Positions 26,513 through 63,074 of a stretch of DNA of 64,000 nucleotides are shown here, in pieces. The DNA lies in the NCBI GenBank assembly GCA_029933125.1, contig JAOZOU010000005.1, positions 1 through 64,000 on the forward strand, read 5' to 3'. The position numbers and the translations under genes are program-made. This DNA comes from a bacterium. Its GTDB lineage: Bacteria > Arandabacterota > Arandabacteria > Arandabacterales > Arandabacteraceae. The notes under the pieces were generated by a model. The model worked only from the letters and a program-made list of their open reading frames with translations. It did no database searches and had not been told where the DNA came from. Positions within the stretch are counted from its first letter, which is position 1; each line of letters begins with the position of its first letter.

Positions 26513-26818
26513 ATGAAATTCTTTGTGATCGGCGATTGGCATACAGTAGCTGGTTTCGGACTTGTTGGTATAGAGGGTAAAAGTGTTAGTGATCGCAACC
26601 AGGCAAAGGAAGCACTGGATTCAGCAGTTGAACGGAAGGATATAGGTGTTGTCCTCATCACTGAGGACATCGCTGAGATCATACGTGATGAAGTCGATGC
26701 TAGACTCTATGGAATCGGCTTCCCCCTGGTGCTTGAGATCCCGGGTCCAAAGGGGCCTTCCGAGAAGCGGCTCAAGATAGAGGATGTAGTACGCAAGGCT
26801 ATTGGAATAAGCATATGA
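26513..26818 (+). CDS. V/A-type ATPase subunit F (NtpG-like)
   Basis: 101 aa. Compact alpha/beta protein: MKFFVIGDWHTVAGFGLVGI, then DIGVVLITEDIAEIIRDEV, then LVLEIPGPKGPSEK, all typical of the rotor subunit F that pairs with D. Starts 1 bp after subunit K and overlaps subunit E by 4 bp. Confidence 0.93.
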   Translation: MKFFVIGDWHTVAGFGLVGIEGKSVSDRNQAKEALDSAVERKDIGVVLITEDIAEIIRDEVDARLYGIGFPLVLEIPGPKGPSEKRLKIEDVVRKAIGISI

Positions 26819-30602: not shown

Positions 30603-30606
30603 CACT

Positions 30607-44054: not shown

Positions 44055-44940
44055 GAAAACCTTGACCTTGCAGGATCTCATAATGAAGCTTGAGAGCTTC
44101 TGGGCAGACTATGGCTGCGCTATTCATCAACCCTACAACAGCGAGGTTGGGGCCGGTACTTTCAATCCTGCAAGCTTTTTGCGTGCACTTGGGCCTGAAC
44201 CATGGCGAGCTGCGCATGTCGAGCCATCACGGAGACCAAGGGATGGGCGATATGGCGAGAACCCGATGCGGGTTCAGCAGTTTCTCCAATACCAGGTAGT
44301 CATCAAGCCTTCGCCTCAGGACATCCAGGAGGTCTATCTGGAAACTCTGAAGAAAATAGGCATAGATCCCAGAGAGCATGACATAAGGTTTGCTGAGGAT
44401 GACTGGGAGTCACCAACCCTCGGGGCTTGGGGTCTCGGCTGGCAGGTCTGGCTGGATGGGATGGAAATAACCCAGTTCACCTACTTTCAGCAAGCTGGTG
44501 GCTTTGATCTAGATCCCATAACTTGCGAAATAACATATGGTCTTGAGCGCATCGCCATGTGTATTCAGGAAGTCGACGATATAAAAGCAATAAAATGGAA
44601 TGATACCCTTACATGGAATGACATATGCGGGCGCAATGAGGTTGAGTTCTCTAAATACAACTTTGAAGAGGCCGACCTCGAAGCTCACTTCCAGATGTTT
44701 CAGTTCTTTGAGAAAGAGGCAGGGCGCCTTGCACGAGAAGGTCTTGTTATGCCAGCCTATGACTTTGTTCTGAAGTGCTCCCACATTTTCAATGTGCTCG
44801 ACGCCCGTGGAGCAATAAGCGTAACAGAAAGAGCATCCTACATCCTTAGGGTGAGGAGGCTTGCGAGGCTGGTTGCTCAAAAATACATGGAACAACGTGA
44901 GGAGCTTGGTTTTCCACTGCTAAAGGGGTGCTCAAGTTGA
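44038..44940 (+). CDS. glyQ: Glycyl-tRNA synthetase alpha subunit
   Basis: 300 aa from ATG 44038 (GAAAGG upstream), starting inside recO. Class II core: [32 protein letters not shown]-type start, [63 protein letters not shown]. Bacterial alpha2-beta2 enzyme. Overlaps glyS by 13 bp. Confidence 0.96.
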
Positions 44941-47006
44941 ATCTTCTCTTCGAGATAGGAACCGAGGAACTTCCTCCATCCTACATTGGACCCGCTCTTA
45001 AACAGATGGAGAGGCTTGCCCAAGAAAGATTTGGTGAGGCAAGGATCGCGTACGGCGAAATCAAAACGTATGGCACACCGCGAAGGCTCGTTCTCATTGT
45101 TAGGGGGCTCTCTGAGAAGCAGGAAGACATTAGCGAGAAGGTTTTCGGTCCGCCTGCCAGTGTTGCTTTTGATACATTGGGCAAACCCACTCAGGCAGCC
45201 ATTGGCTTTGCGAAGTCTCAAGGGGTGGATGTTGGCGATCTTGTCATTGAAGAGAGGGGAAAGGGAGAATATGTCTGCATTGAAAAAACCAAGATTGGGA
45301 AACCGACACGCGATAGGCTTCCTGCGATTCTGGCTGATCTGGTTAAATCTATCTCTTTTCCGAAAGCGATGCGGTGGGAAAGTTCGGGCATGCGTTTTGC
45401 TCGTCCTATCCGGTGGCTTGTAGCGATAGCTGACAGTGAGGTTATTGAAGTCCAGATAGCCGGAGTTAGTGGCTCATGCTTTACGAGGGGACATCGCTTT
45501 CTCGGGAAGCAGCGGATCACAGTATCGAGTGTCGATGAATACATTGAGCTCCTGAGGCGCGAATTTGTGATAGTCAATCAAGAGGAGCGTAAGGCTGCAA
45601 TTGCTCGGGAGATAGGTGAAGCAGCTTCGGCGGTTGGTGGCAAAATCGTTGATGATGAGGAGTTGCTCGAGCGCGTTACCTTCATGGTGGAATATCCCCT
45701 TGCAATTGCCGGAAGTTTTTCAAAGAAGTTCCTCGAGATGCCGCGGGATGTTGTTGTGACTGCTCTTAGAGAACACCAGGACTTCTTCTCAGTCCATGAT
45801 GGCTCAGGAAATCTAATGCCATATTTCGTTGCTGTTGCCAATGTGGATGCTGATCGAAATGGGAAAATCAGAAGTGGTAACGAAAGGGTTCTGAAGGCAC
45901 GTCTTGAAGATGCCCTCTTCTACTGGAAGCAAGATCTCAAAGATGGGTTAAGTGCGATGGTTGAGCGCCTGAGTAAGGTTATCTGGCAGGAGAGGCTTGG
46001 GACTCTCCGGGAGAAGACGGATCGCCTGGTCGCAATCTCTTCGTGGTTGTGTGAGAAAACAGGTTTAGGAGATATCTCCAAGGTCTCGCGTGCAGCATTT
46101 CTTGCGAAGGCTGATCTTACCTCAAACATGGTAAGAGAGAAGGAATTCTCTGGACTGCAGGGTACAATGGGCAAGGAATATGCACTCGCTCTAGGGGAGG
46201 ATGAGGAGGTTGCTCAGGCTATCTATGAGCAATATCTTCCAAGATTTGCGAACGACGTTCTGCCCGCTACCGAAACCGGAACAATCCTTTCGCTAAGCGA
46301 CAGAATTGATACGCTTGTAGGCTACTTTGGTATCGGATTGATTCCCTCAGGTTCTGAGGATCCCTACGCTTTGAGAAGGGTGGCTACGGGTCTTACGAGA
46401 ATCCTCATCGCAAGGCGCCTCCATGTTCCACTCGATGCTGTGGTTGAAGAGGCAGCTAACCTGTTTGGCGAAAAGCTATCCGTCCCTTTGGAGGAGCTTA
46501 CGGCAAGCCTTAAGGATTTCATCCGCCAGAGACTGGCTACAATCCTTACCGAAAGCGGCTATCGCCAGGATATGGTTGATGCTATCACAGATGTGGGTCT
46601 AGATGATGTTGCTGATGCTTTGCTGCGACTTGAAGCACTCAAAGAATTTGAGACAGATGAGAGATTTGGTGTTTTGATAACCGCTTTCAAGCGAGCCTAC
46701 AATATCACCAAGGGAAAGTATCGGGGCAATCTTGAGCCGAATGGCTTTGAGAGTGAGTATGAGCGAAAGCTCTTTGAAATTTTCGGATCTGTAAAACCTC
46801 GCTTTCAAGAACATATTGAGAGACGCGATTTCAGAGGAGCCCTTGGTGTTCTGCTAGAGCTCGCTGAGCCAATTGATAAGTTCTTTGAAAATGTGATGGT
46901 CATGGTTGATGATGAGAATCTGCGAAATCTGCGCCTTAATCTGCTCGGCAATATTACCCACCTTTTCTTAAGGATAGCCAACTTCTCCAGACTGGAATCG
47001 AGCTGA
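44928..47006 (+). CDS. glyS: Glycyl-tRNA synthetase beta subunit
   Basis: 692 aa from GTG 44928. Starts [15 protein letters not shown], the hallmark of GlyS. EITR-like GTPRRLVL and [21 protein letters not shown] follow, then HD-like and C-terminal anticodon-binding regions. Needed with GlyQ for tRNA-Gly charging. Its stop (TGA) overlaps the next ATG by one base, so the AP4 gene is translationally linked to a tRNA synthetase gene. Confidence 0.96.
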
Positions 47007-48715
47007 TGGCATCTCGAGGAAGTCGCAAGGTTCTAATTCTAGGTTTGGACGGTGCTACATGGGATCTGCTTCTTAAGCTGATTGAAGATGGCACTATGCC
47101 CAACCTCGGTTCTCTGCTCAAGAAGGGCGTCTGGGGGAACCTTGTTACGGTTGTGCCTCCCGTAACAGCCACTTCCTGGACAACTTTTTTTACGGGTCTC
47201 GATCCTGGCAAGCACGGTGTCTTTGAGTTTCTCCTGAGAAGGAAAGGGATTTCACAATCGGCTGTCTCGAAGCGCAATCCTTTTGGGGAAGTACCGGTTA
47301 ACTCAACGCTCAGGGACGGTAAACCCCTCTGGGTACTTGCAGATGAGGCAGGTCTTAAGTCTGTGGTTATAAGTGTTCCTATAACCTATCCACCGGAGAA
47401 GATAAATGGTGTGATGATAAGTGGCTTTCTTACTCCACTTGGCAAGCGCGACTTCGTGGAACCTCCCGGTGTTCTTGAAGAGCTCGAGGGGAAATTCGGA
47501 CCATACAAGCTCTATCACAGGCAGGTTTATTCACGCAGGGGGGTTGGGAAGGTTATCGATGAACTCTATGACGTTCTTGATTTCAACATCAAGGTCACAC
47601 GCTATCTTATGAAAACACGCGATTGGGATCTTTTCTTCGCTCATTTCTGGGGAACAGACCGTGCGCAGCATGAACTGTGGCATCTTCTTGATGATCAACA
47701 TCCTCAGCATTCAGAAGAGGAAGCAAAGGTTTATGCGCCAAGACTTAAGGGATTCTATAGGATGCTTGATGAGGGGCTTGCTCAGATCGTTGAAGATGCA
47801 GATGATGCCAGCATCGTTATAGCTTCTGATCATGGTTTTGGACCCATCCACACATTCTTGAGTTTCAATGTCTGGCTTATGGAGCGAGGATATCTTCACT
47901 TCAAAAGCGATTTCGTGAGCTGGTTCAAGCGAGTTTGGTTTTCGCTTGGATTCACACCTGTATTGTTCTATAGACTATCGATGGCACTTGGATTGGCAAG
48001 ACATAGACTCGCTGGTGGTTTTCACTCGAGGCAGAGGATGCAGATGCTTTTGAACAGGTTTTTCCTTTCGCTTGAGAATGTTGACTGGTCAAGAACTGTG
48101 GCTTATTCACGAGGTAATTATGGACAGATATACGTCAATCTCAAGGGCCGGGAGCCTTACGGGTGTGTAAATCCGGGAAGTGAGTATGATGACATAAGAG
48201 AAAAGATAAGGTCAGAACTTCTGGCAACGTCCGATCCCGCGACTGGCGAGCAGCTTATTGATAGAGTCTACCTTAGGGAGGAAATCTATCACGGTCCTTA
48301 TGTTGACGAAGCCCCCGACCTCGTATTCCTGCCCAAGGACATGAAGAACAAGGCACTTGGTACACTTGACTTCACAAGCAATAGATTCATCTTCCCAGCC
48401 CATGGCAACTCGGGAGATCATCGCATGGAAGGCATTTTGCTCGGACTCGGCAATGGCTTCAGACGAGACCACAATTTTGGCTCGCTATCCATACTCGATG
48501 TTGCCCCAACTGTGCTTCATCTCTTGGGTCTTGAGGTTCCACGCCAGATGGATGGTAGGGTGGCGCATGACATTCTTGACGATGATTTTGCACGTCACAA
48601 TCCAGTGAAATATTCCGATAACCAATTGATAGGAAGGGCTAGGGGGTCCCTTCTTTCGGGTGAGGCAAGTGAGGAGATCAGAAGAAGATTGGAAGGGATA
48701 GGTTACGTAGGATGA
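47006..48715 (+). CDS. AP-superfamily hydrolase with LGY tail, AP4
   Basis: 569 aa, no signal peptide. D15 (ILGLDG), nucleophile position T54 (PPVTATSW), D/H in WGTDRAQHELW, SDHGFG, and the final His in SGDHRMEGILLGLG. A ~190-residue insert between SDHG and the last His contains hydrophobic stretches (WFKRVWFSLGFTPVLFYRLSMALGLA, in parts), which could be membrane-associated. The C-terminus ends EEIRRRLEGIGYVG after a low-complexity linker, the same tail plan as AP5 and CysC. First gene of the glycan/lipid run, followed by GT2 with a 4-bp overlap. The substrate is unknown; a lipid-linked phosphate is a reasonable guess. Confidence 0.87.
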   Translation: MASRGSRKVLILGLDGATWDLLLKLIEDGTMPNLGSLLKKGVWGNLVTVVPPVTATSWTTFFTGLDPGKHGVFEFLLRRKGISQSAVSKRNPFGEVPVNSTLRDGKPLWVLADEAGLKSVVISVPITYPPEKINGVMISGFLTPLGKRDFVEPPGVLEELEGKFGPYKLYHRQVYSRRGVGKVIDELYDVLDFNIKVTRYLMKTRDWDLFFAHFWGTDRAQHELWHLLDDQHPQHSEEEAKVYAPRLKGFYRMLDEGLAQIVEDADDASIVIASDHGFGPIHTFLSFNVWLMERGYLHFKSDFVSWFKRVWFSLGFTPVLFYRLSMALGLARHRLAGGFHSRQRMQMLLNRFFLSLENVDWSRTVAYSRGNYGQIYVNLKGREPYGCVNPGSEYDDIREKIRSELLATSDPATGEQLIDRVYLREEIYHGPYVDEAPDLVFLPKDMKNKALGTLDFTSNRFIFPAHGNSGDHRMEGILLGLGNGFRRDHNFGSLSILDVAPTVLHLLGLEVPRQMDGRVAHDILDDDFARHNPVKYSDNQLIGRARGSLLSGEASEEIRRRLEGIGYVG

Positions 48716-49437
48716 ATCCTGGAGAGCGCAAATCGATTTCCTTTGTCCTTCCGGCCTACAACGAGGAAGAGAACATAGAGCGGGCAGTGAGAGCCATTGT
48801 TGATGTTGCCGAAGGGCTTGATCTTGAAGATTGGGAAGTAATAGTCGTTGACGATGGTAGTAGCGACAGAACCGGTGAGATAATAGATAGATTGCACGAA
48901 GAAAATGAGCGTATAAGGCCTATCCACCATGAGCAAAACCTCGGCTATGCTGATGCACTTCGTACAGGTTTTAAGAGCGCAAGGTGTAAGCTCATCTTCT
49001 ATACAGATTCTGATCTTCAGTTTGATGTTAGGGAGGTAAAGAATTTCCTTCCGGCAATTGAGGATTACGATATAGTCACGGGTTTCCGTATCTACCGCTA
49101 TGATCCCTTTTCAAGACTTGTGCTCGCATGGGGCTACAACTTAATTGCCAGAACGATATTCCGCCTGAAGGTAAGGGATATCGATTGTGCCTTTAAGCTT
49201 TTCAGGCGCGAGGTATTTGATGTGATAGATATACGTTCCAAGAAGTTTTTCGTTGATACCGAGATTTTGGCAAAGGCGCGCTATCATGGTTTCAGAATGA
49301 CAGAGATTGGAGTAAGGCACTATCCGCGTGCAGGTGGGCGAAGTACAGTTCGCCCAAGCCATGTTTTGAGCACCTTAAGGGAGTTGGCCAAGATGTGGTT
49401 CGAAATATATCTCGGTATTGGCAAGAGAAAATCGTGA
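48712..49437 (+). CDS. Family 2 glycosyltransferase (dolichol-phosphate-mannose-synthase-like)
   Basis: 241 aa, no membrane anchor visible. GT-A core: SFVLPAYNEEENIERAV, VIVVDDGSSDRTGEI, the DxD-type FYTDSDLQFD, KSARCKLI, and CAFKLFRREVFD. The family moves sugars from nucleotide donors to polyprenyl phosphate, which then feeds GT-C/GT39 enzymes on the far side of the membrane; two such enzymes follow. It overlaps AP4 by 4 bp. Confidence 0.9.
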   Translation: MNPGERKSISFVLPAYNEEENIERAVRAIVDVAEGLDLEDWEVIVVDDGSSDRTGEIIDRLHEENERIRPIHHEQNLGYADALRTGFKSARCKLIFYTDSDLQFDVREVKNFLPAIEDYDIVTGFRIYRYDPFSRLVLAWGYNLIARTIFRLKVRDIDCAFKLFRREVFDVIDIRSKKFFVDTEILAKARYHGFRMTEIGVRHYPRAGGRSTVRPSHVLSTLRELAKMWFEIYLGIGKRKS

Positions 49438-49438
49438 T

Positions 49439-51832
49439 ATGCACAAAGTGTCGAGAGATCTCGTTGCTATCCTTCTGCTCGTCGTCCTGATCACCCTTTT
49501 CTTCCTCAATGAACTGGTCACAGATGAGACGATAGTTACCTACAGGTTGAAAAATGTCTATCCCTGGTTGGCAGAGGCCACCAGTGAGGATCTCCAGAAG
49601 CCATCTATCACATCTGACTGCACCTTCTCCTACTATCCAAGACGCTTCTTCGCTACGGAGAGTTTGAGGCACGGCGAGATACCCTTCTGGAATCCACATC
49701 AGTTCTGCGGGATTCCTTTCCTTGCAACCTTCCAATCTGCTGTTTTCTATCCTGTAAACATCCTGCTCTATGCTTTTGATCCTCCTACACAGATGGATCT
49801 TTTTGTCTACATTCACTTCCTGATTGCTGCAATCTTCAGCTTTCTGCTTGCAAGGAAACTGGGAATCTCGATTGCTGGTTCATCAATAACCTCGCTAACT
49901 TTTACTTTTTGTAGTTTCATGATTACACGCTATGGTCAGCCAACTTTCATTTCAACAGCAAGCTGGGTTCCGGCATTGGTTTTGCTTGGAGAGCGCCTGA
50001 GAGAGAAGCCAACATTGAGGCGTGCAGGATTTCTGGCCCTCGGACTGGTCTTAAGTATACTTTCTGGATTTCCTCAGCTTGTAATCTACAGTATCTATAT
50101 CCTGGGGATTTACTTGATCATAAGGAGTTCGCTTGAAAGGCAAAGGGGTCTAAGGGAGCGACTGATTCCCCTTATCTACATGCTCATTGCAGTATGTGTG
50201 GCTATTCTCATTACTTCCTATCAGCTTCTGCCAACCTATGAGCTTAGCAGGTTCTCTTATCGCAAGATACTCCCCTTTGAGATGATCGCATCGAGTGCCC
50301 ATACAAAGCTTGCAGCAGTCAAGTATTTCATTCCTGACTTCCTAGGCAATCCCGTTGATCTTGGAGCAAAGAGCAAGATCCTTCATGGAGCTCATGGTGG
50401 CTCAACTTTCTCGCGCAACTATGTAAGCACAACTGGCTATGTGGGTATCCTTCCCTTGCTCCTGGCTCTTATTTCTTTCCTCAAGCCATCGCGTAGATCC
50501 CTTCCATTTGTTGCTCTTGCTGTCTTGAGTCTGCTGATAGTGTTTGGTACGGGCCTTCTTCGCATCGTCTATCATCTACCCGGGTTCAATTTTTCTCGAA
50601 TTGATCGAGTCATTGTCGCCTATATGTTCTCGATTGCTGTGCTTGCGGGTCACGGTTTTGATAAGATCTTCTCAGGCAGAGAAAGACATGTGCCTATTGC
50701 GGCGGTTTGCTTTGCTGCATTTGCGATCGTGTTGGCTTTGTGGATTGGCAAGGTTGGCGTCGCTAATATAATCGCTCAGGCTGGTGAACGTGTGCCAGCG
50801 GATCTCTATCGGAACTATGTGCTCAGAAAAATTGTCTTCTTTGTCATCCTGAGCCTTCCAGCTTCTTTGTTTGTCATACTTGCATGGCGCCAAAGATTAT
50901 CGCATAGGGCTTTCACGATTGCAGCCTTGTGCATCCTGCTGGTTGATTTGCTTCCAGGAGCGGCTAAGTTCAAGGTGACTCAGAAGGCTTCTGAGATCGT
51001 GCCGGAGAGCGTTTTCATTGACCGTCTCCGTTCGGATGAGAGCATGTGGCGTTTCGCCAAGTTTGGGGCTGATGTAATCCCAGCAAACACGGCAACGCTT
51101 ATTGGCCTTGATGACATTCATGGTTATGATGCCCTCAATGTGAACCACTATATCGAGGTGCTTGGAGCAATTGACAAGTCAGTCATATCCGTCAGCAATG
51201 CTGCCCTGAGAAGGCGCATAGGTCCCTTTGGCAGAAGCTCGGCTCTTACTTCGAAGATCCTAGATCTGCTCAATGTCAAATATATCTTGGGTGTTGCTGA
51301 TGTTGGAAGCACACATCCTGAGGCTATTCGCTGGGTTAACAAAGATTGCTTGTCTCGGGCTTTTCTTGTAGCCAGGGCTCATTTTCTTGATACCTATGAT
51401 GCTATTCTTGCATACATGGGAAGCCAGGAATTCGATCCGGCAAGTGAGGTTCTCCTTAAAAGAGATGAAAGTGTGGCGGGTGTGGTAAGTGAAGGTGGCA
51501 TGGCAGGCGGCGAGGCATTGCCAGGGCACGCAAGAATAACAAGATATGAATCAAATAGGGTTGAGATCGAAGCTATCTGTAATGGTCCCTGCTATCTTGT
51601 CGTCTCAGATGTTTGGTATCCCGGATGGAAGGTATATGTTGACGGAAATGAGGCGGAGCTCCTGAGGGCGGATTACGCCTTCAGAGGCGTGAGGCTGGAG
51701 GGTGGAAAGCACTCGGTTGTTTTTTCCTACTTCCCACGAAGCTTTAGGCTGGGCCTTTTGCTAACAATATCTGGTCTTGCCCTTCTTGGAGCGATGCTTT
51801 CCTCAGTAAAAGATTTCTACAACTTGAGGTAA
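49439..51832 (+). CDS. YfhO-like large membrane protein (GT-C type), first copy
   Basis: 797 aa from ATG 49439 (1 bp after GT2; TTG 49418 in frame). About 12-13 membrane segments. Motifs shared with the second copy at 54433: PFWNPHQFCGIPFLA and FYPVNILLYAFDP near the start, FCSFMITRYGQPTFISTASWVP, FLGNPVDLG, FSRIDRVIVAY, and the C-terminal hallmark VWYPGWKVYVDGNEAELLRADYAFRGV, given in parts, with AGKHSVVF-like end. YfhO proteins are putative glycosyltransferases that use polyprenyl-linked sugars. Inferred to modify an envelope polymer or lipid. Confidence 0.88.
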   Translation: MHKVSRDLVAILLLVVLITLFFLNELVTDETIVTYRLKNVYPWLAEATSEDLQKPSITSDCTFSYYPRRFFATESLRHGEIPFWNPHQFCGIPFLATFQSAVFYPVNILLYAFDPPTQMDLFVYIHFLIAAIFSFLLARKLGISIAGSSITSLTFTFCSFMITRYGQPTFISTASWVPALVLLGERLREKPTLRRAGFLALGLVLSILSGFPQLVIYSIYILGIYLIIRSSLERQRGLRERLIPLIYMLIAVCVAILITSYQLLPTYELSRFSYRKILPFEMIASSAHTKLAAVKYFIPDFLGNPVDLGAKSKILHGAHGGSTFSRNYVSTTGYVGILPLLLALISFLKPSRRSLPFVALAVLSLLIVFGTGLLRIVYHLPGFNFSRIDRVIVAYMFSIAVLAGHGFDKIFSGRERHVPIAAVCFAAFAIVLALWIGKVGVANIIAQAGERVPADLYRNYVLRKIVFFVILSLPASLFVILAWRQRLSHRAFTIAALCILLVDLLPGAAKFKVTQKASEIVPESVFIDRLRSDESMWRFAKFGADVIPANTATLIGLDDIHGYDALNVNHYIEVLGAIDKSVISVSNAALRRRIGPFGRSSALTSKILDLLNVKYILGVADVGSTHPEAIRWVNKDCLSRAFLVARAHFLDTYDAILAYMGSQEFDPASEVLLKRDESVAGVVSEGGMAGGEALPGHARITRYESNRVEIEAICNGPCYLVVSDVWYPGWKVYVDGNEAELLRADYAFRGVRLEGGKHSVVFSYFPRSFRLGLLLTISGLALLGAMLSSVKDFYNLR

Positions 51833-51836
51833 CTGG

Positions 51837-53468
51837 ATGGCGGGTAAACACACGGCGACTGTGGGGGCGCTCCTTGTCTTCGTAGCTGCCCTATTGTATT
51901 TCCTTTCGTATGCGCGCTATGGGCTTGCCTATGACGAGGGATACCTTCTCGATGCTGTTAAGAAGATAATGGAAGGGCAAGTAATCTACCGTGACTTCCA
52001 CCATACATATGCCCCGGGAAGATTTTATCTCATCGCTTGGGCTTTCCGCCTATTCGGAAACGACCTCATGGTCGAGAGGATAATCTTTGCCATACTCGAA
52101 TCCGTCAAATGCCTTCTGGCCTTTGTAATTGCGAGAAAACTGCGAGCAGGTGCTTTCGCCTGGCTAGCCCCATTGCTCATATGTCTTGCACCTGGACCGT
52201 GGCACAAGGTTTTCTTTTCCACCTTCGGGTTCTTGGCGATCTATGCGGTTCTCATCATGCTCGAGAAAAATTGGAAGGGGGCATTGGCTTGCGGGCTGAT
52301 TGTTGGGATAAGTGGCATCTTCAGGCAGGATGCGGCCGCATTTGCTCTGCTTGGGGCTCTTGGAGGGCTGGCGCTTGCGAGAGCCACACATTTGCTGACC
52401 TGGCGTGATGTCTTGAAGCGTCTTGGTGGAATGATTGGTGGAACATTGGTCAGCGTTGTGCCGGTGCTTGGCTACTTTCTGTGGCAGCATGCCCTCGGTG
52501 CAATGATAGAGAAGGTCACGAGAGAGGGGATGCTAGATAACTTAACAAATCGCATTCCTTATCCTGGAATTCTTCCCACAACAAAGCTTGACGCAATGTA
52601 CATAAAGGTCATACTTGGATCAAAGATCCTTTTTTATCTTCCCTTCATAGTTTATGCCCTTGCCGTCTTTGTCATAATCAGGACCTTGGTGAAGAAGCAA
52701 GATACTATCCTTACCGCCGGTATCGCGGTTGTGGCAACTGCTGCTATTTTGGCTTTCAACCAGAGTGTGTGGCGCTCTGACGTTGGTCACCTGCTCCAGA
52801 CAATGCAATTTGTATTCCTTCTCTTCCCTATCGTCGCTGCACAGCTAAATAGGTGGGTTGAAGAGATCGTGAGAGCAAGAGTTGGCCGCAGAAGCGTGAC
52901 CGTACTGCTCTTTGCTATCTTGCCTTTCATCGTTCTCTCGGCAATCTATGGTTGCTATCTCGCGACGACATCAAGACGGGTGGCAATGCGTTTCGTTGAG
53001 GAGGGTATATCGGTAGGTGATATCGAATATCTTGGATCAATTGTAGTGAGGTTTGGCAACGATACCAGGCTGGGGCTCGAGCGTGTACCTATTTATCTGC
53101 GCAGGGACGAAGCTGCCTTTTTCATGGCGATAAAAGAATTTCTTGATAAGCATACTCTGCCAGGTGACTATGTGCTCGCTGTGCCCCAGCTTCAGATGCT
53201 CTATTTCTTCTACGATCGGAGAAACCCAACAAGATATGCCCACTATCGGAGGGCGCTGGACCCAGATGAGGAGGAGCGCTACATCGAGGATATAAGAACC
53301 CATGCAACAAAATATATTTTTCTCGTGGAGCCTTACGAGGGAGCACGCATAGGGGCAACTCGGCAGCCTTTCAGCCAGTATGCTCAACGGGTGAGATCGT
53401 GGATCCTGGCCAACTATGAAGAGGTTGAGAGAATAGGTCCTGTAAGAATCCTGAGAATGAAGAAATGA
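51837..53468 (+). CDS. GT39-like (PMT/ArnT-type) membrane glycosyltransferase
   Basis: 543 aa, start ATG 51837 four bases after the previous stop. Around 10 membrane segments; RYGLAYDEGYLLDAVKKIMEG near the N-terminus has the Asp/Glu-rich first loop (YDEGY) expected of GT39/ArnT-like enzymes, then DFHHTYAPGRFYLIAWAFRLFG. A soluble C-terminal part (~430-543) includes YFFYDRRNPTRYAHYRRALDPDEE. It takes sugars from lipid carriers. Overlaps the YbhN-like gene by 4 bp. Confidence 0.85.
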   Translation: MAGKHTATVGALLVFVAALLYFLSYARYGLAYDEGYLLDAVKKIMEGQVIYRDFHHTYAPGRFYLIAWAFRLFGNDLMVERIIFAILESVKCLLAFVIARKLRAGAFAWLAPLLICLAPGPWHKVFFSTFGFLAIYAVLIMLEKNWKGALACGLIVGISGIFRQDAAAFALLGALGGLALARATHLLTWRDVLKRLGGMIGGTLVSVVPVLGYFLWQHALGAMIEKVTREGMLDNLTNRIPYPGILPTTKLDAMYIKVILGSKILFYLPFIVYALAVFVIIRTLVKKQDTILTAGIAVVATAAILAFNQSVWRSDVGHLLQTMQFVFLLFPIVAAQLNRWVEEIVRARVGRRSVTVLLFAILPFIVLSAIYGCYLATTSRRVAMRFVEEGISVGDIEYLGSIVVRFGNDTRLGLERVPIYLRRDEAAFFMAIKEFLDKHTLPGDYVLAVPQLQMLYFFYDRRNPTRYAHYRRALDPDEEERYIEDIRTHATKYIFLVEPYEGARIGATRQPFSQYAQRVRSWILANYEEVERIGPVRILRMKK

Positions 53469-54436
53469 AAAAGTCCTCTCTGCTAAAAATTGTAAGACTG
53501 GTCGTAAGCACCGGGCTGATTCTTTATTTGATCTCGAGACTTGATCTTGGTGCTGTGGCTCATAATTTTCGATCACTGAGCCCCTTCTACTTAATTCTTG
53601 CAGGTGCCCTCATATTTGTGATGGTACTTGCCAATGCTTTACGCTGGAAGGTCATACTCAAGTCAAAGGATGTTAGAGTACCCTACTGGCGTCTGGTGTA
53701 TTTTTATCTTGTCGGCATCTTTTTCAGTTCGATTCTGCCTACGAGCATTGGTGGCGATTTCGCAAGAGTCGTTGCAGTGGCTAATGCGACCGAAAGGGGA
53801 GCTGACGCTTTAGCCTCAGTTGTGGTTGAGCGATTTCTGGGTTTCTTTATTTTGCTTCCTGTCGCCCTTTTTTCACTACCCTTCGTCAGCGATAGAATCT
53901 CAGAATGGAAGCTACTGGTGATAGTCGGATGCGTTGCAATTGCTGTTTTTGTGGGGGCTTATCTCATGCTCCTGAGGCCTGTTGCCAGGCGGCTTGCTAT
54001 GGTGCTCAATCCCCTCCTTAGTATTCTCGTGCGTTTCCGCGCAAGAGAAAGGCTTGAGAAGGCTTATGAAGCCGTTGTTGCGTATAGCAAGTACAGGGGT
54101 ACTATCCTCATTGCACTGCTTCTCAGTCTGGTTGCGAGATTGCTATGGATAGGGGGTTGCTTCGTCCTTGCACAATCCCTTGAGATTAGATCGGGCTTCA
54201 TGGCTCTTCTGCTTGTTGTTCCCGTTGTAGAGCTCGTGAGAATGATACCGATATCGATAAGTGGTCTGGGACTGCGCGAGGCCGCTTTCGTTGTCATGTT
54301 GAAGCAGTTTGGTGTCGCAGATAGCAAGGCTTTCACGCTGGCCGTTACCATTTATGTTCTTTTCTTCCTTCTTGGTATAGTGGGCGGCGTTCTCTATGGT
54401 ACACGCCAATTGCTCCCGGCTAGGAGTGCGAAGTGA
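53465..54436 (+). CDS. YbhN / LPG-synthase-TM family flippase-like protein
   Basis: 323 aa, about 8 membrane segments. Matches the UPF0104 / lysylphosphatidylglycerol-synthase TM family: ISRLDLGAVAHNF, ANALRWKVILKSKDV, ILPTSIGGDFARVVAV, ASVVVERFLGFFILLP, and PISISGLGLREAAFVVML. No LysPG soluble domain, so it is the stand-alone flippase-like form, found often next to membrane glycosyltransferases. It may move a lipid-linked sugar. Overlaps both neighbours by 4 bp. Confidence 0.88.
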   Translation: MKKSSLLKIVRLVVSTGLILYLISRLDLGAVAHNFRSLSPFYLILAGALIFVMVLANALRWKVILKSKDVRVPYWRLVYFYLVGIFFSSILPTSIGGDFARVVAVANATERGADALASVVVERFLGFFILLPVALFSLPFVSDRISEWKLLVIVGCVAIAVFVGAYLMLLRPVARRLAMVLNPLLSILVRFRARERLEKAYEAVVAYSKYRGTILIALLLSLVARLLWIGGCFVLAQSLEIRSGFMALLLVVPVVELVRMIPISISGLGLREAAFVVMLKQFGVADSKAFTLAVTIYVLFFLLGIVGGVLYGTRQLLPARSAK

Positions 54437-57400
54437 AATCCCTCAAGATAGCCATGGTATGTGTGCTTTTCATTGTCATTGTTTGTGCATTCTTCAGTGA
54501 TGTGATATTTGGTAAGCGCATTCTCTTGACATGCAATCCCCATATCTGGAGTCCATGGAAGGCTTATACATCAGCGCAGAGCGCCGCAACGAAGACATAT
54601 CGAACAGATTCGGCGCTTACCTACCTTCCTCGTCTTTACGAACTCAAGCGTGCAATCGGCGGTGGGAGACTTCCTCTATGGAATCCCCATGTCTTTATGG
54701 GATATCCCTTCTTCGCTGATCCTCAATCGCGGGTTTTTTATCCTATCTCACTCCTGCTTAGCCTCGGTGATCCTGAGCGAGCTCTTGGTTTTGATGTCGC
54801 AATTCACTTGGGAATAGCTCTAATGGGGATGTATGCTTTCCTGACATCGCTTGGAGCATCCAAGCCTGGAGCAGTTCTTGGTGCTCTCACCTTTGGATTT
54901 TCATCATTTTTCTTCACACGAATGGGGCATCCAACATTTGTTGCCACAGCCAGCTGGATACCCTGGCAATTCTTCGGTTTTCACTTAGCGCCTAGACGCT
55001 GCATGGGCAAGGCCGTATTGCTTGGCGCGCTTGTACTGGGATACCTTGCAGGCTTTCCACAGGTGTTTTTCCTCGGAGTTGGCGCACTCCTCTTCTATGC
55101 CATCTGGATCTCAGTCGAGGAGATCGTGCAACGCGATAGATCAAGGTTGTTTGAGAATGTGAAGATCTTGCTAATCATTGGTGGAATTGCCTTCCTCATT
55201 GTGTCACCGCAGCTTCTGGCTTTCATTGAGTTCATACGTAACTCCAGAGGACTCGGCATTGATTTTGAAACAATGAAGACTTCATACATGTCAAGCCCAT
55301 GGGTGCTTTTGAGGGTGCTCGTCCCTGGATTTTTTGGCAATCCTGTTGAGGGCACAAGCTGGCTAAGATTACTGAATCCAACCTTCCATCCTTACAACGA
55401 AGGCTTCCTGGTTTATGCTGGTGTGGGAAGTGCTCTCGTAGCACTTGGTGGCTTGGCTTTCTTGAAGAGCTCAAGAGAGATCAGAGCCTTCTGGGGTCTG
55501 CTTGTGCTTGCCTGCGCTCTCGCCCTTAGTTCCTCGCTTCTCAAGCCATTTTACGTTGCCATTCCGTTTCTGAGGTTCTCCCAGATCGACCGTATATCGG
55601 TCATAGCGTGTTTGAGTCTTTCAACTGTGGCAGCTCTTTCATTTTCCCAAATCTCAGAGGCTTCGAGGAGCCAGAGGAGAAGATTTGTAATCATTGTTCT
55701 CGTTGCTACTACCATGATCCTTGTTGGCTATTTGGGCTTTAGCATCAATCGCTATTCCATAATGGGAAGTATAAAGCAGGAGGCAAAGAGATTTGGGCAT
55801 TCCTTCTGGCAGACCCAGGCGTCGCATAGGATTTGGAACTGGGCTAGAAGTGAACGCCCAGAGTGGGCAAGGTTCGAGGCTGAAAACTTAAAGTTTTCAC
55901 TCGTGATGGCGCTTGTCTCTGGATCACTCCTTCTGGGATATGTGATGAGACGTGATAAGCGATGGTTCCCGATCGTCCTTGGCTGGGTTTTTGTTGCACT
56001 GACATCTGGCGATCTCATGAAGGTTGCAAGGTCATACTATGTTAGCCAGCCTTCGGGGAGTCTCTGTGAAACCGAGGGAATAGCCCTGCTCAGGGAGCTC
56101 GTTAGCGATGGGGCTGGGTGGCGAGTTCTTCATTATGGCAGTGCTAGTGAGGTTTTGCCTGCAAATACCAATGCGATTTTCGAAATCCCATCAATCTCAG
56201 GACGCTCAACCCTTGTTCCTGAGGGTTTTGCAAACTATGCACTCGTTTCAAGCAGCCTCTCTTCAAGATCTGCATCGAGCCAGGAAGTACTTAGCCTGAA
56301 GGATATTGCTTGTGCAAGATATCTTCTGGCGGATACGCTTTATCCTGAGATGCTTCGTTCTCCTATCCTGGCTGGGATGATGGCAACCCTTAAGCGGAAG
56401 CCCGAGGTTTTGGCTGTAGCAAAGGAGGCAAGGCTGGCCTTTCCGCTCACGGTAGGTAAGATTGACATGGAAGTCGTACTCCCCCAGGCCGAGGGCCTGG
56501 AATTTTACTTCGCGTTTGAATCTCAAAGCACATTGAGAGACTCCATTTATCTCAGTCTCAACGTCTCAAACAGGCTAACGGTCAGTTCGACCTATGCCTT
56601 TGATTCGGCTTGGGATGCTGGGATATGGCACAGACTATATCTTGACATATCCCGCTTGAGCGGAGGCAGATCAAAGGTTGAGATTGAGCTCAGAAGCAAG
56701 CATCCGGCTCAGCCGCAATGTTACCTTGCGGGGGGAGACATTGTGGAGAGGATCTGTGAGGTGAGGTCTTCTCAAGGAGGCTATACGCTTGAAGGGATAG
56801 GGAAGGAGGGGAGAATACTTATCGACCTTTCGAGTCACAATCCGCTGCTTAAACTCTCTTTGGACTGGGGTGACTTCAAGACGGTTGGTTACATTACATT
56901 TCCTCCTGGATGGGAGCACCGCTCCATAACTATCCCCGTTGAAGGCGGCGCTGGCAGGCTCAGAATCGAGGGGGATGGTGAATTTGAAATAGCAAGAGCA
57001 AGGGTCATCGAGACTGCTGAGGCATATGTCCCTGGATTCGAAGTTCTCTACAATGGTGATATGGTCATAGTTGAGAACACGCGAGCGATTGAGAAGGGCA
57101 TTTTCATAGACAAGTCTCGGACTGTATTCCATAGGAAAGGTGACGAGATCTTGCTCAGCTTCGATCCCTCAAGCATGCTTAGGGATGAGGCGGGCTCGTG
57201 CCTTATTCTTCATTATGGTCCCGAGCACATCGAAGCAGAGGTCACAGCAAGGCGAGAGGGTTATCTTTTGTTACAGGATGTTCACTACCCGGGTTGGAAA
57301 GGCTATGTGGATGGTAGGCCAACTGAGGTTTTGCCAAGCTATCCTGGGATACGTGCTATAGATGTTCCAGCGGGCAAGCATCGCATCATCATGGAATATC

Positions 57401-57483
57401 GACCATTCTGGATGAGATTGGGATTGGGCCTTATGGTAGCAGGTCTTATTGTTGGAATCATTTATGTCAGGAAGTCAAGCTAG
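54433..57483 (+). CDS. YfhO-like large membrane protein (GT-C type), second copy with beta-rich insertion
   Basis: 1016 aa, about 220 longer than the first copy. The membrane part is clearly paralogous: PLWNPHVFMGYPFFADPQSRVFYP, SSFFFTRMGHPTFVATASWIP, VPGFFGNPVEGTSW, FLRFSQIDRISVIA. The C-terminus has VHYPGWKGYVDGRPTEVLP and GKHRIIMEY. The extra residues (~675-860) look like a beta-sandwich or carbohydrate-binding-type domain (LPQAEGLEFYFAFES, LTVSSTYAFDSAWDAGIW, LPISSYIP-type strands are absent). It overlaps the YbhN-like gene and the next GT39-TPR gene. Confidence 0.87.
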   Translation: MKSLKIAMVCVLFIVIVCAFFSDVIFGKRILLTCNPHIWSPWKAYTSAQSAATKTYRTDSALTYLPRLYELKRAIGGGRLPLWNPHVFMGYPFFADPQSRVFYPISLLLSLGDPERALGFDVAIHLGIALMGMYAFLTSLGASKPGAVLGALTFGFSSFFFTRMGHPTFVATASWIPWQFFGFHLAPRRCMGKAVLLGALVLGYLAGFPQVFFLGVGALLFYAIWISVEEIVQRDRSRLFENVKILLIIGGIAFLIVSPQLLAFIEFIRNSRGLGIDFETMKTSYMSSPWVLLRVLVPGFFGNPVEGTSWLRLLNPTFHPYNEGFLVYAGVGSALVALGGLAFLKSSREIRAFWGLLVLACALALSSSLLKPFYVAIPFLRFSQIDRISVIACLSLSTVAALSFSQISEASRSQRRRFVIIVLVATTMILVGYLGFSINRYSIMGSIKQEAKRFGHSFWQTQASHRIWNWARSERPEWARFEAENLKFSLVMALVSGSLLLGYVMRRDKRWFPIVLGWVFVALTSGDLMKVARSYYVSQPSGSLCETEGIALLRELVSDGAGWRVLHYGSASEVLPANTNAIFEIPSISGRSTLVPEGFANYALVSSSLSSRSASSQEVLSLKDIACARYLLADTLYPEMLRSPILAGMMATLKRKPEVLAVAKEARLAFPLTVGKIDMEVVLPQAEGLEFYFAFESQSTLRDSIYLSLNVSNRLTVSSTYAFDSAWDAGIWHRLYLDISRLSGGRSKVEIELRSKHPAQPQCYLAGGDIVERICEVRSSQGGYTLEGIGKEGRILIDLSSHNPLLKLSLDWGDFKTVGYITFPPGWEHRSITIPVEGGAGRLRIEGDGEFEIARARVIETAEAYVPGFEVLYNGDMVIVENTRAIEKGIFIDKSRTVFHRKGDEILLSFDPSSMLRDEAGSCLILHYGPEHIEAEVTARREGYLLLQDVHYPGWKGYVDGRPTEVLPSYPGIRAIDVPAGKHRIIMEYRPFWMRLGLGLMVAGLIVGIIYVRKSS

Positions 57484-59818
57484 GGCAAAGGGCACCAGGC
57501 CCACAGATGGGGTCGTATCAAGAGGGCTTAGAAAGGGTGAGTGGCTTGCCTTTTGCTGCATCTTTGGTGTAGCCACTCTGTTGAGAATTGCCTATGCGCT
57601 TCAATCGCGCCAAAGTCCTTTCTTTGACCAGCTTGATCTCGATTCACGCTTCTACGACCTGTGGGCTAAGAAGATAGCCAGGGGCAATTGGATTGGTGAT
57701 GATGTCTTTTTCATGGGCCCGCTCTATCCTTACTTTCTTGCAACCATCTACTCTCTCTTTGGACCTAACCTGCTTGGGGTTCGTTTGATCCAGAGTGTGC
57801 TTGGCGGATTTACTGCTGGCTTCACCTTCCTGCTTGGCAGGGAATGCTTCAATGCTACTGTTGGTTTAATTGCAGGGTGTTTGGTAGCTCTCTATGTTCC
57901 TTTTATCTTCTACGACAATGCCATTCTTTTTCCTGTTCTAGCTGCGTTTCTCAATACCATCATGCTGTATATGCTTTGCCGCGGAGTCACCCGTCGAGAG
58001 AAAGTTGCATTCCTTCTTGGAGGTCTCTTCTGTGGCCTTTCGGCTGCTGGCAACGCAAGTGTATTAGCATATGTACCCTTTGTGGCTATTTTTCTGCTTA
58101 AATATGGGCACATAAAGCTCGGGGCCAAGGTCCGAAGCCTTGCGCTTGTTGTTGCCGGCATAGCCATAGTTGTTCTTCCCATAACCATACGCAACTACGT
58201 CATTGGGAAGGATTTCGTACCTTTGACGTCTAATGCTGGTCTCAATCTCTACATAGGGAACAATCTGCGATCAACAGGTGCATATGTCAAACCTGAGGGA
58301 TTAGACATTTACAGTGACCCATCGGGTAGAACGATTGCGGAAGCGGCTCTGGGCAGGAAACTTAAGCCGTCTGAGGTTTCATCATATTGGACGGGGCGAG
58401 CTCTTGAATTCATCAAGACGCATCCCAGAGATTTCCTTGGCAATCTCGTGCGCAAGTTTTTCTTCTTCTGGTCAGTTTATGAAATACCCCAGATTGAGCA
58501 CTTGGAGTTTGAAAAGCGCTTCTCATGGATACTCAGACTCCCGGCTCCATCATTTGGCATAATTTGTCCACTCGGAATAGTCGGCATTGGAATTGCACTT
58601 CGCAGAAGAAGGAGGGCATGGCTGCTATTCCTCTTCATCGCTGTTTACTCGCTTACGATCATTGCCTTTTTCGTCGTAGCGCGCTACAGGCTCCCGATGA
58701 TACCCGCCCTCATGACTTTCGCTGGTTACAGCATCTATTACTTTACCCAAACAGATCGTCGCGAGCTTGTGAAGAAACTAATTTTGCTTGGAGCACTTTT
58801 TACTGTCGTCCATATAAACTTCTTTGGAATTGACCCCCACAGCGGCTATGCTCAGTCTCATTACAGATTGGGACTCGCATACGAGAAGAAGGGTAATTAT
58901 CGAGCCGCAATCGAGAGTTATCGCAAAGCTACACAGATGGATCCCAAACTAAAGGCCGCTTATCTCAATCTTGGAATCCTGCTTTCAAGGCTTGGCAGAT
59001 ATGATCAAGCCAAGCAGCCAATCCTGGAGGCAATTCGCCTCGACTCAACTTATGCAAAAGCTTACTATGACTTGGGACTTGTTTATGCTGAAGAGGCAAA
59101 TCTCGACTCAGCTTTAGCCATGTTTGAGCGAGCACTAAAGATAGAACCCGGCTATGACCTGGCTCTTCTGGGGCGTGCGAGTGCCCTTTATGAGATGGGA
59201 AGGCTCGAAGAAGCGAATGAGTTGCTCTCTGGTCTCAGGCGCAAGGCATCTCTCGAGCCTGCGTCACTCAAGCAAGTTCGTGCGTTGCTGAGATTGATCC
59301 CCGAAAGAAAGGCATGGCTTGAGTCGAGAAAGCTCGAATATCAGCGACTTTCGGATAGATTTCTTCTCAGGGGTGATGATCTTCTTGCCATTGGGCTAAT
59401 TGATAGGGCACGAAAAGCTTATCAGCGGGCGATCGGGGCGGATGAGCATTCTGCCCCTGCACTTTATCAGCTTGGGACAATTTACCTAAGAGCTGGCCAG
59501 ATCAGACAGGCTGAGACCTATTTTAAAAAGGCAATTGCGAGTGATCCTTCCATCAAGTTTGCTCATCTTGCCTTGGGGGGAATTGCCCTTAGAAGGGGTG
59601 ACTTTGAAAAGGCATGCAAGGAGTTCGAAGCGGAGCTTGGGGTCAACCCGGATTCACCTCAAGCTCACATCAACCTGGCAATGTGCTATGAGGAACATCT
59701 CGGGATTCTTCGCAAGGCAGCCTACCATCTTCGAAAGTATATAGAACTGACGGGTGGAACGCAGGAGCTTAGAAGACATCTAAAGGAAATCGAAAGGAGA
59801 TTGCAAAATGAAGGTTAA
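57464..59818 (+). CDS. GT39-like membrane glycosyltransferase fused to TPR repeats
   Basis: 784 aa from ATG 57464 (TTG 57449 in frame). First ~460 residues: membrane GT39-type domain with DQLDLDSRFYDLWAKKIARG (acidic first loop) and FMGPLYPYFLATIYSLFG. Then at least six TPR units (GLAYEKKGNYRAAIESYRKA, ILLSRLGRYDQAKQ, LVYAEEANLDSALAMFERAL, TIYLRAGQIRQAETYFKKAI, IALRRGDFEKACKEF). The TPRs probably gather partners on one face of the membrane. Overlaps the second YfhO gene by 20 bp and AP5 by 11 bp. Confidence 0.88.
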   Translation: MSGSQARAKGTRPTDGVVSRGLRKGEWLAFCCIFGVATLLRIAYALQSRQSPFFDQLDLDSRFYDLWAKKIARGNWIGDDVFFMGPLYPYFLATIYSLFGPNLLGVRLIQSVLGGFTAGFTFLLGRECFNATVGLIAGCLVALYVPFIFYDNAILFPVLAAFLNTIMLYMLCRGVTRREKVAFLLGGLFCGLSAAGNASVLAYVPFVAIFLLKYGHIKLGAKVRSLALVVAGIAIVVLPITIRNYVIGKDFVPLTSNAGLNLYIGNNLRSTGAYVKPEGLDIYSDPSGRTIAEAALGRKLKPSEVSSYWTGRALEFIKTHPRDFLGNLVRKFFFFWSVYEIPQIEHLEFEKRFSWILRLPAPSFGIICPLGIVGIGIALRRRRRAWLLFLFIAVYSLTIIAFFVVARYRLPMIPALMTFAGYSIYYFTQTDRRELVKKLILLGALFTVVHINFFGIDPHSGYAQSHYRLGLAYEKKGNYRAAIESYRKATQMDPKLKAAYLNLGILLSRLGRYDQAKQPILEAIRLDSTYAKAYYDLGLVYAEEANLDSALAMFERALKIEPGYDLALLGRASALYEMGRLEEANELLSGLRRKASLEPASLKQVRALLRLIPERKAWLESRKLEYQRLSDRFLLRGDDLLAIGLIDRARKAYQRAIGADEHSAPALYQLGTIYLRAGQIRQAETYFKKAIASDPSIKFAHLALGGIALRRGDFEKACKEFEAELGVNPDSPQAHINLAMCYEEHLGILRKAAYHLRKYIELTGGTQELRRHLKEIERRLQNEG

Positions 59819-61067
59819 TCCGTGGAAAGCCGCGATTCTGGTTTGCCTCCTCGGGGTAATTGCAATCTTAGGCTGTTCGTCTGAGACCAAGCCGCCAACC
59901 AAGATAATTTTTGTAGGAATCGATGCGGCTGACTGGGATGTTATGAAGCCATTGCTTGAGGCAGGCAAGCTCCCCAATTTCACTCGATTGATCAAGCAAG
60001 GGGCAACAGGGAGGATCGAAACGTTCATACCTCTTCGTAAGTCACCCGTGCTCTGGACTTCGATTGCAACATCCAAAATGCCTGATGAGCATGGAATCGG
60101 TGGATATATTGCTTCCACACCTTCGGGGGAGGCAGTCCCTTACACGGGAAATACGCGGCGTGTCAAAGCCATATGGAATATTCTGAGTGAAAAAGGATAC
60201 AAGGTTGCAATTGTTGGCTGGATGGTAACCTGGCCAGCCGAAGAGGTGAATGGCTACCTCGTGAGCGATTACATCCAGTATGAGACTGACAAGCACATAA
60301 AGCTTGACAGGCAGACCTGTCCGGACAGTCTTTTCAAGGACATTGATCGGTTTAGGGTTACCCAGAACGATGCTACAGATGAGGATATTGCAAACATTTT
60401 CCCTGTTGATATTGATCTTGAGAAGGCGGGTATCGCTCCCTGGCAGAAAGACTATGTCAAAATGATTTGGGCAACCGATGAGACATACAGAAGAATCGCT
60501 CATTACCTTAATGATAAAGGCATTGACTTTCTTGCTGTCTACTTCAATGGTATAGACTCAATGGGTCATGCCTTCTGGGACTACAGAGACAAGGAAGGGC
60601 ATCCTCTTCAGCATATTATTGATTACTATTATGTCTGGATTGATGGGGTGCTGGGTGAATTTCTTGACCTTGTGGATGAGAATACCCTTCTCATTACGTG
60701 TTCCGATCATGGCTTCCACGGACCTCGACATGCCGCCGACGGAAGTTTGCTGCTCGGAGTCTATATGCACGCCCGCTATGGTATTGTCGGTTTGATGGGT
60801 AAGGGTGTGAAGCCAGGTTCTCATATCGTTGGGGCTAGTATACTCGACATAACCCCTACGATCCTCTATGCGTTTGGCCTTCCTGTAGCGAAAGATATGA
60901 AAGGCAAGATTCTCACAGATGCATTTGAGCAGGATTTCCTCAGAGCAAATCCTGTCAAGTTCATTGAGACCTATGAAACGGGTGAAAGGGTTGTGGGTGA
61001 GCCCATAAAGACTCCAGTTGATGAGAAGATAAAGAAGCGTCTCAAGACATTGGGCTATATCCAGTAG
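59808..61067 (+). CDS. AP-superfamily lipoprotein with LGY tail, AP5
   Basis: 419 aa. Unlike the other four AP proteins it has a lipoprotein signal peptide with lipobox ILGC (Cys23). Core: D39 (VGIDAADWD), nucleophile position S79 (RKSPVLW), NGIDSMGHAFW, CSDHGFHG and the last His in PRHAADGSLLLG. The stretch between SDHG and the last His is only ~10 residues, so the large lid region of AP1-AP4 is missing. The C-terminus is KIKKRLKTLGYIQ. It overlaps the GT39-TPR gene by 11 bp and ends the run; the minus-strand gene converges 2 bp later. Likely a periplasmic or outer-membrane phosphodiesterase/phosphotransferase of the same pathway. Confidence 0.88.
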   Translation: MKVNPWKAAILVCLLGVIAILGCSSETKPPTKIIFVGIDAADWDVMKPLLEAGKLPNFTRLIKQGATGRIETFIPLRKSPVLWTSIATSKMPDEHGIGGYIASTPSGEAVPYTGNTRRVKAIWNILSEKGYKVAIVGWMVTWPAEEVNGYLVSDYIQYETDKHIKLDRQTCPDSLFKDIDRFRVTQNDATDEDIANIFPVDIDLEKAGIAPWQKDYVKMIWATDETYRRIAHYLNDKGIDFLAVYFNGIDSMGHAFWDYRDKEGHPLQHIIDYYYVWIDGVLGEFLDLVDENTLLITCSDHGFHGPRHAADGSLLLGVYMHARYGIVGLMGKGVKPGSHIVGASILDITPTILYAFGLPVAKDMKGKILTDAFEQDFLRANPVKFIETYETGERVVGEPIKTPVDEKIKKRLKTLGYIQ

Positions 61068-63010: not shown

Positions 63011-63074
63011 GACATCATCCTTTTGCGCTGTCATCTTAGGGTAACTCAGCTCTCCACTCAAGGGCAAAAATGGC

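Follow-up and report, generated by a model that had tools for sequence, protein, structure and literature searches.

Related Glycosylation Systems and the Gene Run

Multicomponent systems for transmembrane glycosylation, namely CsbB-GtcA-YfhO and its relatives, combine a GT-A glycosyltransferase for the synthesis of a C55-P-sugar with a flippase and a GT-C transferase of the YfhO or PMT_2 type (PMC8035078). A run of eight genes with a comparable plan, which also includes two enzymes of the alkaline phosphatase (AP) superfamily, lies at 47006-61067 on the forward strand of the window, that is, the whole 64,000-nt stretch analyzed here (positions 1-64,000 of contig JAOZOU010000005.1, assembly GCA_029933125.1); the genome has 3.23 Mb (label G000, this contig being C171), and its nearest named matches, one from the same class among them, are the uncultured Candidatus Eisenbacteria. 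The run is a real, conserved unit, and it probably encodes one polyprenyl-monophosphate-sugar-dependent glycosylation pathway operating across the cytoplasmic membrane, with all its reactions predicted.

Like the CsbB-GtcA-YfhO type, the run has a GT-A enzyme of the polyprenyl-phosphate glycosyltransferase type, GT-C transferases, and a flippase-like protein; unlike it, the run has a UPF0104 protein instead of GtrA or Wzx, a GT2 enzyme devoid of transmembrane (TM) helices, four GT-C enzymes, one of them with tetratricopeptide repeats (TPRs), and two AP-superfamily enzymes. Regarding the Pgf operon of Streptococcus mutans, it also groups a GT2 enzyme with membrane glycosyltransferases, and in NCBIfam the GT2 and YfhO1 of the run match PgfS and PgfM2 best, both far under the cut-offs; Pgf includes an epimerase but lacks AP and UPF0104 genes (PMC5856776), whereas Pfam found no UDP-sugar epimerase (PgfE) among the eight genes. 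As for UPF0104, the accessible part of a study on archaea places arCOG00899 members of this family beside AglD-like and PMT/STT3-like genes and proposes them as flippases in glycosylation loci; these loci share GT2, UPF0104, and GT-C with the run, and differ in that neither an AP-superfamily partner nor a TPR-bearing GT-C enzyme is mentioned in that part (PMC5898192). Finally, the gpgSDF operon of Pseudomonas aeruginosa pairs a glycosyltransferase with a predicted UPF0104 flippase, but its product is glucosaminyl phosphatidylglycerol, and it has neither a GT-C nor an AP enzyme (PMC12713373).

A preliminary description of the window had called the pathway undescribed; this stands for the AP component and for the combination, but not for the plan of GT2, flippase, and GT-C, which is already known (PMC8035078), nor for UPF0104 beside PMT/STT3-like and AglD-like genes, noted in archaea (PMC5898192). 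No description of the AP superfamily combined with YfhO, UPF0104, or GT39 was found in the searchable literature, outside which many subscription papers lie; within it, both the AP partner, which is constant, and the make-up with YbhN and a TPR-GT-C are undescribed.

The eight open reading frames (ORFs) are arranged head to tail after glyS, and these genes, together with the two flanking ones, are as follows (aa, amino acids):

47006-48715, forward strand: AP4, AP-superfamily protein of 569 aa (PF01663, 1.6e-37)
48712-49437, forward strand: GT2, glycosyltransferase of 241 aa (PF00535, 1.7e-34)
49418-51832, forward strand: YfhO1, 804 aa (PF09586, 4e-12)
51837-53468, forward strand: GT39a, 543 aa (PMT_2, 9.7e-5, under the curated cut-off), with syntenic orthologues
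53465-54436, forward strand: YbhN, 323 aa (PF03706, 3.3e-45)
54433-57483, forward strand: YfhO2, 1016 aa (PF09586, 2e-4, under the cut-off)
57449-59818, forward strand: GT39b-TPR, 789 aa (PMT_2, 4.8e-9, and several TPR models)
59808-61067, forward strand: AP5, AP-superfamily protein of 419 aa (PF01663, 1.5e-25)
44928-47006, forward strand: glyS, housekeeping gene directly upstream, with linkage kept in relatives
61070-63067, reverse strand: PMT_2/LIC_10190-type membrane protein (PMT_2, 5e-11; LIC_10190 family, 6e-21), convergent to the run

The genes overlap by 1 bp (glyS/AP4), 4 bp (AP4/GT2), 20 bp (GT2/YfhO1), 4 bp (GT39a/YbhN), 4 bp (YbhN/YfhO2), 35 bp (YfhO2/GT39b), and 11 bp (GT39b/AP5), and a gap of 4 bp separates YfhO1 from GT39a. 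The coordinates and the tight junctions behind glyS agree with the preliminary description, which had given 20 bp as the largest overlap; that of 35 bp assumes that GT39b starts at the TTG of 57449, and it would shrink to ∼20 bp with the in-frame ATG that lies ∼15 bp further downstream. No pathway role is inferred for glyS.

Conservation and Co-occurrence

Within the phylum, an AP4 orthologue is present in all eight genomes examined. G004 (L052) has the full order glyQ-glyS-AP4-GT2-YfhO1-GT39a-YbhN-YfhO2-GT39b-AP5 and then the convergent PMT_2 gene, identical to the window, and the pieces found in G001, G002, G003, G005, and G006 match this order until their contigs end. G007 is reshuffled (glyS-AP4-GT2-YbhN-YfhO-GT39b, with YfhO1-GT39a on a separate contig), its members being kept.

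In two GTDB families outside the phylum, genes of these types again follow glyQ-glyS. Behind glyQ-glyS, G106 (L137) reads GT2-YfhO-YfhO-AP4-GT39a-YbhN-GT39b-TPR, followed by the convergent PMT_2 gene, and G242 (L136) has the G106 order through YbhN, where the contig ends. The PMT_2/LIC_10190-type gene, which keeps its position and orientation behind the run in G004 and G106, is a possible accessory GT-C enzyme. G073 (L134) encodes an AP5-like protein, a DUF3604 protein, AP4, GT2, a GT-C-like protein, a YfhO fused to an AP domain, and GT39b; in four Blastocatellia/Chloracidobacterium genomes (Acidobacteriota), AP4, GT2, and YbhN are adjacent without glyS, and one of these loci runs on into GT-C-like genes. 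The GT2 proteins of these outside groups have 63-69% identity with the one in the window, and in many loci AP4 stands immediately 5′ of GT2.

Close relatives were delimited by score, namely at least 580 bits for AP4-proper (paralogues reach at most 526) and more than 330 bits for GT2-proper (the next score is 291). AP4-proper was present in 12 of the 290 genomes and GT2-proper in 11, every one with AP4-proper, counts that are not independent events as these genomes are few and from related lineages; beyond the phylum, AP4-proper occurred in G073, G214, G106, G242, and G125. The neighborhood of AP4-type genes was also informative: a YbhN, Wzx, YfhO, or GT39 profile match was found within 8 kb at 10 of 11 Eisenbacteria loci (p = 2.6e-6), 16 of 20 loci from other phyla (p = 1.1e-6), and 8 of 15 named loci (p = 1.9e-3), compared with 1 of 20 random 16-kb windows from long-contig genomes; the Wzx, GT2, YfhO, YbhN, and GT39 profiles derive partly from the tested loci, with the Wzx proteins independently called by Pfam, and the loci inside each group are not phylogenetically independent.

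A second module occurs elsewhere in G000, with an AP4-like gene (C152:116392) preceded by YbhN and by a TMEM260-like GT-C enzyme with TPRs. In G007 an AP4-like gene, a TMEM260-like TPR protein, and YbhN are adjacent, and G003 and G004 have this arrangement by position, their middle gene being outside the Pfam scan; the TMEM260-like match (PF11028) was obtained in the second module, L121 and L128.

These data bear on whether the genes are together only through ancestral synteny behind a housekeeping operon, with no single pathway. The upstream order phoH-ybeY-corC-recO-glyQ-glyS is conserved as well, so that the synteny is partly regional; but the AP4-GT2-YbhN triad recurs away from glyS in Blastocatellia, membership persists while G007, G106, and G242 reshuffle the order, the genome carries the second module at another place, and fusions occur, which makes this explanation very improbable. 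Chance synteny was rejected on the neighbor enrichment over random windows and on the matching profiles; these two results and the conserved gene order place the run beyond chance. The preliminary description had proposed a search for such co-occurrence and a single pathway for the genes, an idea that scattered genes in relatives would have refuted and that these results support: the genes remain together inside the phylum and, beyond it, in at least two GTDB families, with the AP4-GT2-YbhN core in Acidobacteriota. Long ORFs that extend AP4 upstream in L137 and L054/L069 were considered as fusions and judged to be artefacts of open-frame starts, in L137 because the extension is overlapped by both YfhO matches, which lie in a different frame of that strand.

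AP-Superfamily Enzymes AP4 and AP5

AP4 has no TM helix and no signal peptide was found in it, in agreement with the cytoplasmic location given in the preliminary description; the structure prediction proposed there produced an AlphaFold2 (AF2) model with a pLDDT of 87.6, whose closest PDB folds by Foldseek are NPP/ENPP phosphodiesterases, with NPP3 crystallized with UDP-GlcNAc among the matches listed. The positions that we take to be its metal ligands (D15, D218, H222, D275, H276, and H472) and nucleophile (T54), from motif alignment with known NPPs and not from superposition, are highly conserved: the ligands are invariant in 20 of 20 relatives, and the nucleophile is Thr in 17 and Ser in 3. 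Judging by these residues the catalytic site is intact, and AP4 appears to be a cytoplasmic, NPP-like phosphodiesterase of the AP superfamily, its activity being predicted. It shares with NPP/ENPP the fold, the metal ligands, and the Thr at the nucleophile position, and differs from them in its cytoplasmic location, an identity of 12-16%, a conserved C-terminal LGY tail, and a domain of ∼170 residues that is extra relative to AP5. A membrane-binding amphipathic helix (∼residues 303-345) was also considered, and it was not used as evidence: several relatives pass the discriminant, and the window copy fails.

AP5 has a lipobox-like signal (..ILGC), whose Cys is shared with the G004 orthologue, as are the candidate catalytic residues, and it is predicted to be an extracytoplasmic AP-superfamily lipoprotein.

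The C-terminal tails of the two proteins are similar, RRRLEGIGYVG in AP4 (48662-48712) and KKRLKTLGYIQ in AP5 (∼61020-61064). Among 1913 distinct ORFs with a length of 150 aa or more, 84 end in the motif RL..LGY[IVL], and these are mostly AP-superfamily proteins, both cytoplasmic and secreted; outside the superfamily it occurs among others in four CysC-type adenosine 5′-phosphosulfate (APS) kinases, and the window CysC has it at ∼14178-14230. It may be a docking tail; the last residues of the AP4 model have low confidence.

Regarding its role, AP4 most likely cuts a donor, either the polyprenyl-P-sugar or the nucleotide sugar that feeds it, which would free the carrier lipid or limit flux; that the lipid-linked sugar itself is the substrate is put forward tentatively. 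The functional precedent is given by UshA and UpsH of Bacillus subtilis, proposed to do the same job, the release of undecaprenyl phosphate (UndP) from lipid-linked sugars or polymers (PMC11898649). Alternatively, AP4 might be a nucleotide-sugar pyrophosphatase or another nucleotide phosphodiesterase that adjusts the supply of donor and leaves lipid-linked sugars untouched, in an otherwise unchanged pathway. This would suit the NPP fold, the match to NPP3 with UDP-GlcNAc, and the place of AP4 just before GT2; it is rather doubtful, as it leaves unexplained both the AP4-type genes and AP fusions with membrane flippases and GT-C enzymes, and the extracytoplasmic AP relatives in the same loci.

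Regarding these fusions, one frame of L134 (4541-8902) joins YfhO to a PF01663 domain and has a lipobox-like stretch where the two meet, and in L149 (10178-13366) and L151 (10481-13705) UPF0104 is fused to a sulfatase-type AP domain that has Thr where sulfatases have Cys or Ser. Together with the predicted extracytoplasmic location of AP5, a PF01663 lipoprotein, they are consistent with AP4 and/or AP5 being phosphodiester transferases that move a phospho-headgroup onto the sugar or its acceptor and yield a phosphorylated glycan or lipid, similarly to the ethanolamine-phosphate transferases of glycosylphosphatidylinositol (GPI) synthesis, LtaS, and EptA; in GPI synthesis, eukaryotic PF01663-type enzymes work next to GT-C enzymes that depend on dolichyl phosphate mannose. 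However, known enzymes of this transferase type are bound to the membrane and have their activity outside the cytoplasm, while AP4 lacks a TM helix and a signal and its nearest folds are the hydrolytic NPPs. This explanation is thus unlikely, and a GPI-like transferase role for AP4 was demoted since the protein appears cytoplasmic and NPP-like.

GT2, YbhN and the GT-C Enzymes

The best PDB matches of the GT2 profile are ArnC (1.4e-25) and DPM synthase (5.7e-21), with the sll0501 glycosyltransferase also matched, and ArnC is, with PgfS, the best NCBIfam match; GT2 is predicted to be a polyprenyl-phosphate glycosyltransferase of the DPM synthase/ArnC type. YbhN scores above the cut-off for both PF03706 and TIGR00374 (UPF0104), which suggests a flippase-like membrane protein; no match to a GtrA-type or Wzx-type flippase was found among the eight proteins, as the preliminary description had noticed for Wzx. 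Elsewhere in G000, another AP4-like gene (L124, G000:C176:133279-134913) directly adjoins a Wzx-type flippase, so this genome has Wzx-type export genes in other places.

As for YfhO1, its PF09586 match covers only ∼60 C-terminal residues, and its model has a modest pLDDT (68.8); still, the top 22 PDB matches in Foldseek are all GT-C enzymes or complexes that contain them, including EmbA, STT3, ArnT, AftD, PglB, and PMT, with low TM-scores. The model supports the fold class of a GT-C membrane glycosyltransferase but no closer relation; D67 is invariant. YfhO2 resembles YfhO1 (31%), has positional orthologues in G003, G004, and G005, and carries a soluble insert of ∼200 aa before its last TM helix compared with the 805-819-aa forms of relatives. 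GT39a and GT39b are assigned to GT-C through PMT_2 only; sequence searches of the PDB with the YbhN, YfhO1, and GT39a profiles gave no match. Thus, among the family labels given at the outset, those of AP4, GT2, YbhN, GT39b, and AP5 hold by Pfam and YfhO1 is GT-C by its model, whereas GT39a and YfhO2 are weak and under cut-offs.

GT39b has PMT_2 at 91-241 and TPRs from ∼468, the same succession of GT-C domain and TPRs found in the O-mannosyltransferases TMTC1-4 and TMEM260, where the repeats are thought to recruit Ig-like acceptors (PMC11292533). It differs from them in being listed as PMT_2, and the TMEM260-like model PF11028 is absent from the 25 of its 27 family matches listed; the TMEM260-like domain is found in the second module. 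TPR-GT-C paralogues are common, which makes the GT39b profile alone a poor marker.

These repeats touch on the nature of the acceptor, for which proteins have close to an even chance. It is also quite possible that the acceptor is lipopolysaccharide, a glycolipid, or another envelope polymer, as in the CsbB-GtcA-YfhO systems, whose YfhO and PMT_2 GT-C enzymes modify teichoic acids and cell-wall polysaccharides (PMC8035078), and the large extracytoplasmic-type domains of YfhO1 and YfhO2 fit a polymer as well. Conversely, the TPRs of GT39b and the TMEM260-like TPR GT-C of the second module have the architecture of protein O-mannosyltransferases (PMC11292533), and the NCBIfam matches of YfhO1 and GT2, far under cut-offs as they are, point to components of Pgf protein glycosylation (PMC5856776).

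Proposed Pathway

What was observed is the gene content, order, and co-occurrence, the folds of AP4 and YfhO1, and the intact catalytic residues of AP4; every reaction of the polyprenyl-monophosphate-sugar pathway, as well as its sugar, its acceptor, and the substrates of the AP enzymes, is inferred. GT2 would transfer the sugar of a nucleotide sugar to polyprenyl phosphate at the inner face of the membrane, and YbhN would move the lipid-linked sugar to the outer face, where YfhO1, YfhO2, GT39a, and GT39b-TPR would transfer sugars to acceptors, the TPRs of GT39b probably choosing protein acceptors as proposed for animal TMTC1-4 and TMEM260; AP4 would work in the cytoplasm as described above, and AP5 on a phosphodiester outside. 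This proposal is built on the conserved order and membership, the AP4-GT2-YbhN triad, the matching profiles, the enrichment, the GT2 profile, the two folds, the intact AP4 residues, the AP fusions, and the second module, as well as on the published precedents for GT-A/flippase/GT-C systems (PMC8035078), for UPF0104 in glycosylation loci (PMC5898192), for UndP-releasing hydrolases (PMC11898649), and for O-mannosyltransferases of the TPR-GT-C type (PMC11292533); the logic of loading, flipping, and transfer put forward at first is supported by family and fold.

Several points weigh against the pathway. G125 is the sole genome with AP4-proper and without GT2-proper, and G076 and G217 carry the GT39b-TPR type with neither AP4-proper nor GT2-proper. 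Some AP4-type genes adjoin Wzx-type flippases or have no transport gene nearby, so that AP4-type enzymes may have substrates other than a monophosphate sugar. Many CsbB-type enzymes have TM helices that GT2 lacks, and UshA and UpsH, an α/β-hydrolase and a metallophosphoesterase, have folds unrelated to the AP superfamily and lie outside glycosylation operons. As for UPF0104, the transport of polyprenyl-P-sugars by this family is a prediction in the literature, and its member GpgF is tied to a glycosylated phospholipid (PMC12713373). Lastly, the functions of all eight genes are predicted ones.

Other AP-Superfamily Genes and Further Loci

For a genome of 3.2 Mb, the AP complement of G000 is unusually large, with 33 PF01663 matches spread over about 25 genes. 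Among AP5-like proteins, two (L129 and L130) are C-terminally long, at 911-934 aa, and L129, the one scanned, has many TPRs. The window also contains a sat-AP2-cysC module at 12816-17373, with AP1 alongside, convergent on the other strand, in which ATP sulfurylase and APS kinase genes are interleaved with AP-superfamily genes; it recurs with AP1 in G109 (L142) and, modified, in G226 (L151), L143 being also listed. The module may be a unit for sulfate activation equipped with AP enzymes of its own. Relatives of the window ORF 5632-7635 lie between AP4 and AP5 in L134 (12420-13922, a copy that matches DUF3604) and adjoin AP4 in L135 (11088-12587); this type of protein may add a further phosphoesterase to the pathway. 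Finally, an operon at 23114-31236 resembles by sequence a V/A-type ATPase (subunits C, I, K, E, A, B, and D), to our knowledge uncommon in bacteria.

Implications

In a broader and speculative extension, which we hold to be rather unlikely in full, AP4-type proteins would be widespread, undescribed cytoplasmic phosphodiesterases of lipid-linked sugar pathways in several phyla, both YbhN-based and Wzx-based, that free or edit the carrier, and that act here in a TMTC/TMEM260-like protein O-glycosylation. If the proposed pathway is right, the large orphan branch of AP-superfamily enzymes found with flippases and GT-C enzymes in several uncultured phyla would gain a testable function, and UPF0104 would be suggested as a flippase type for monophosphate-linked sugars in bacteria. 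The pathway would also offer a bacterial setting in which to study the TPR-GT-C architecture of animal O-mannosyltransferases, and it would mean that the recovery of the carrier lipid can be part of a glycosylation operon.

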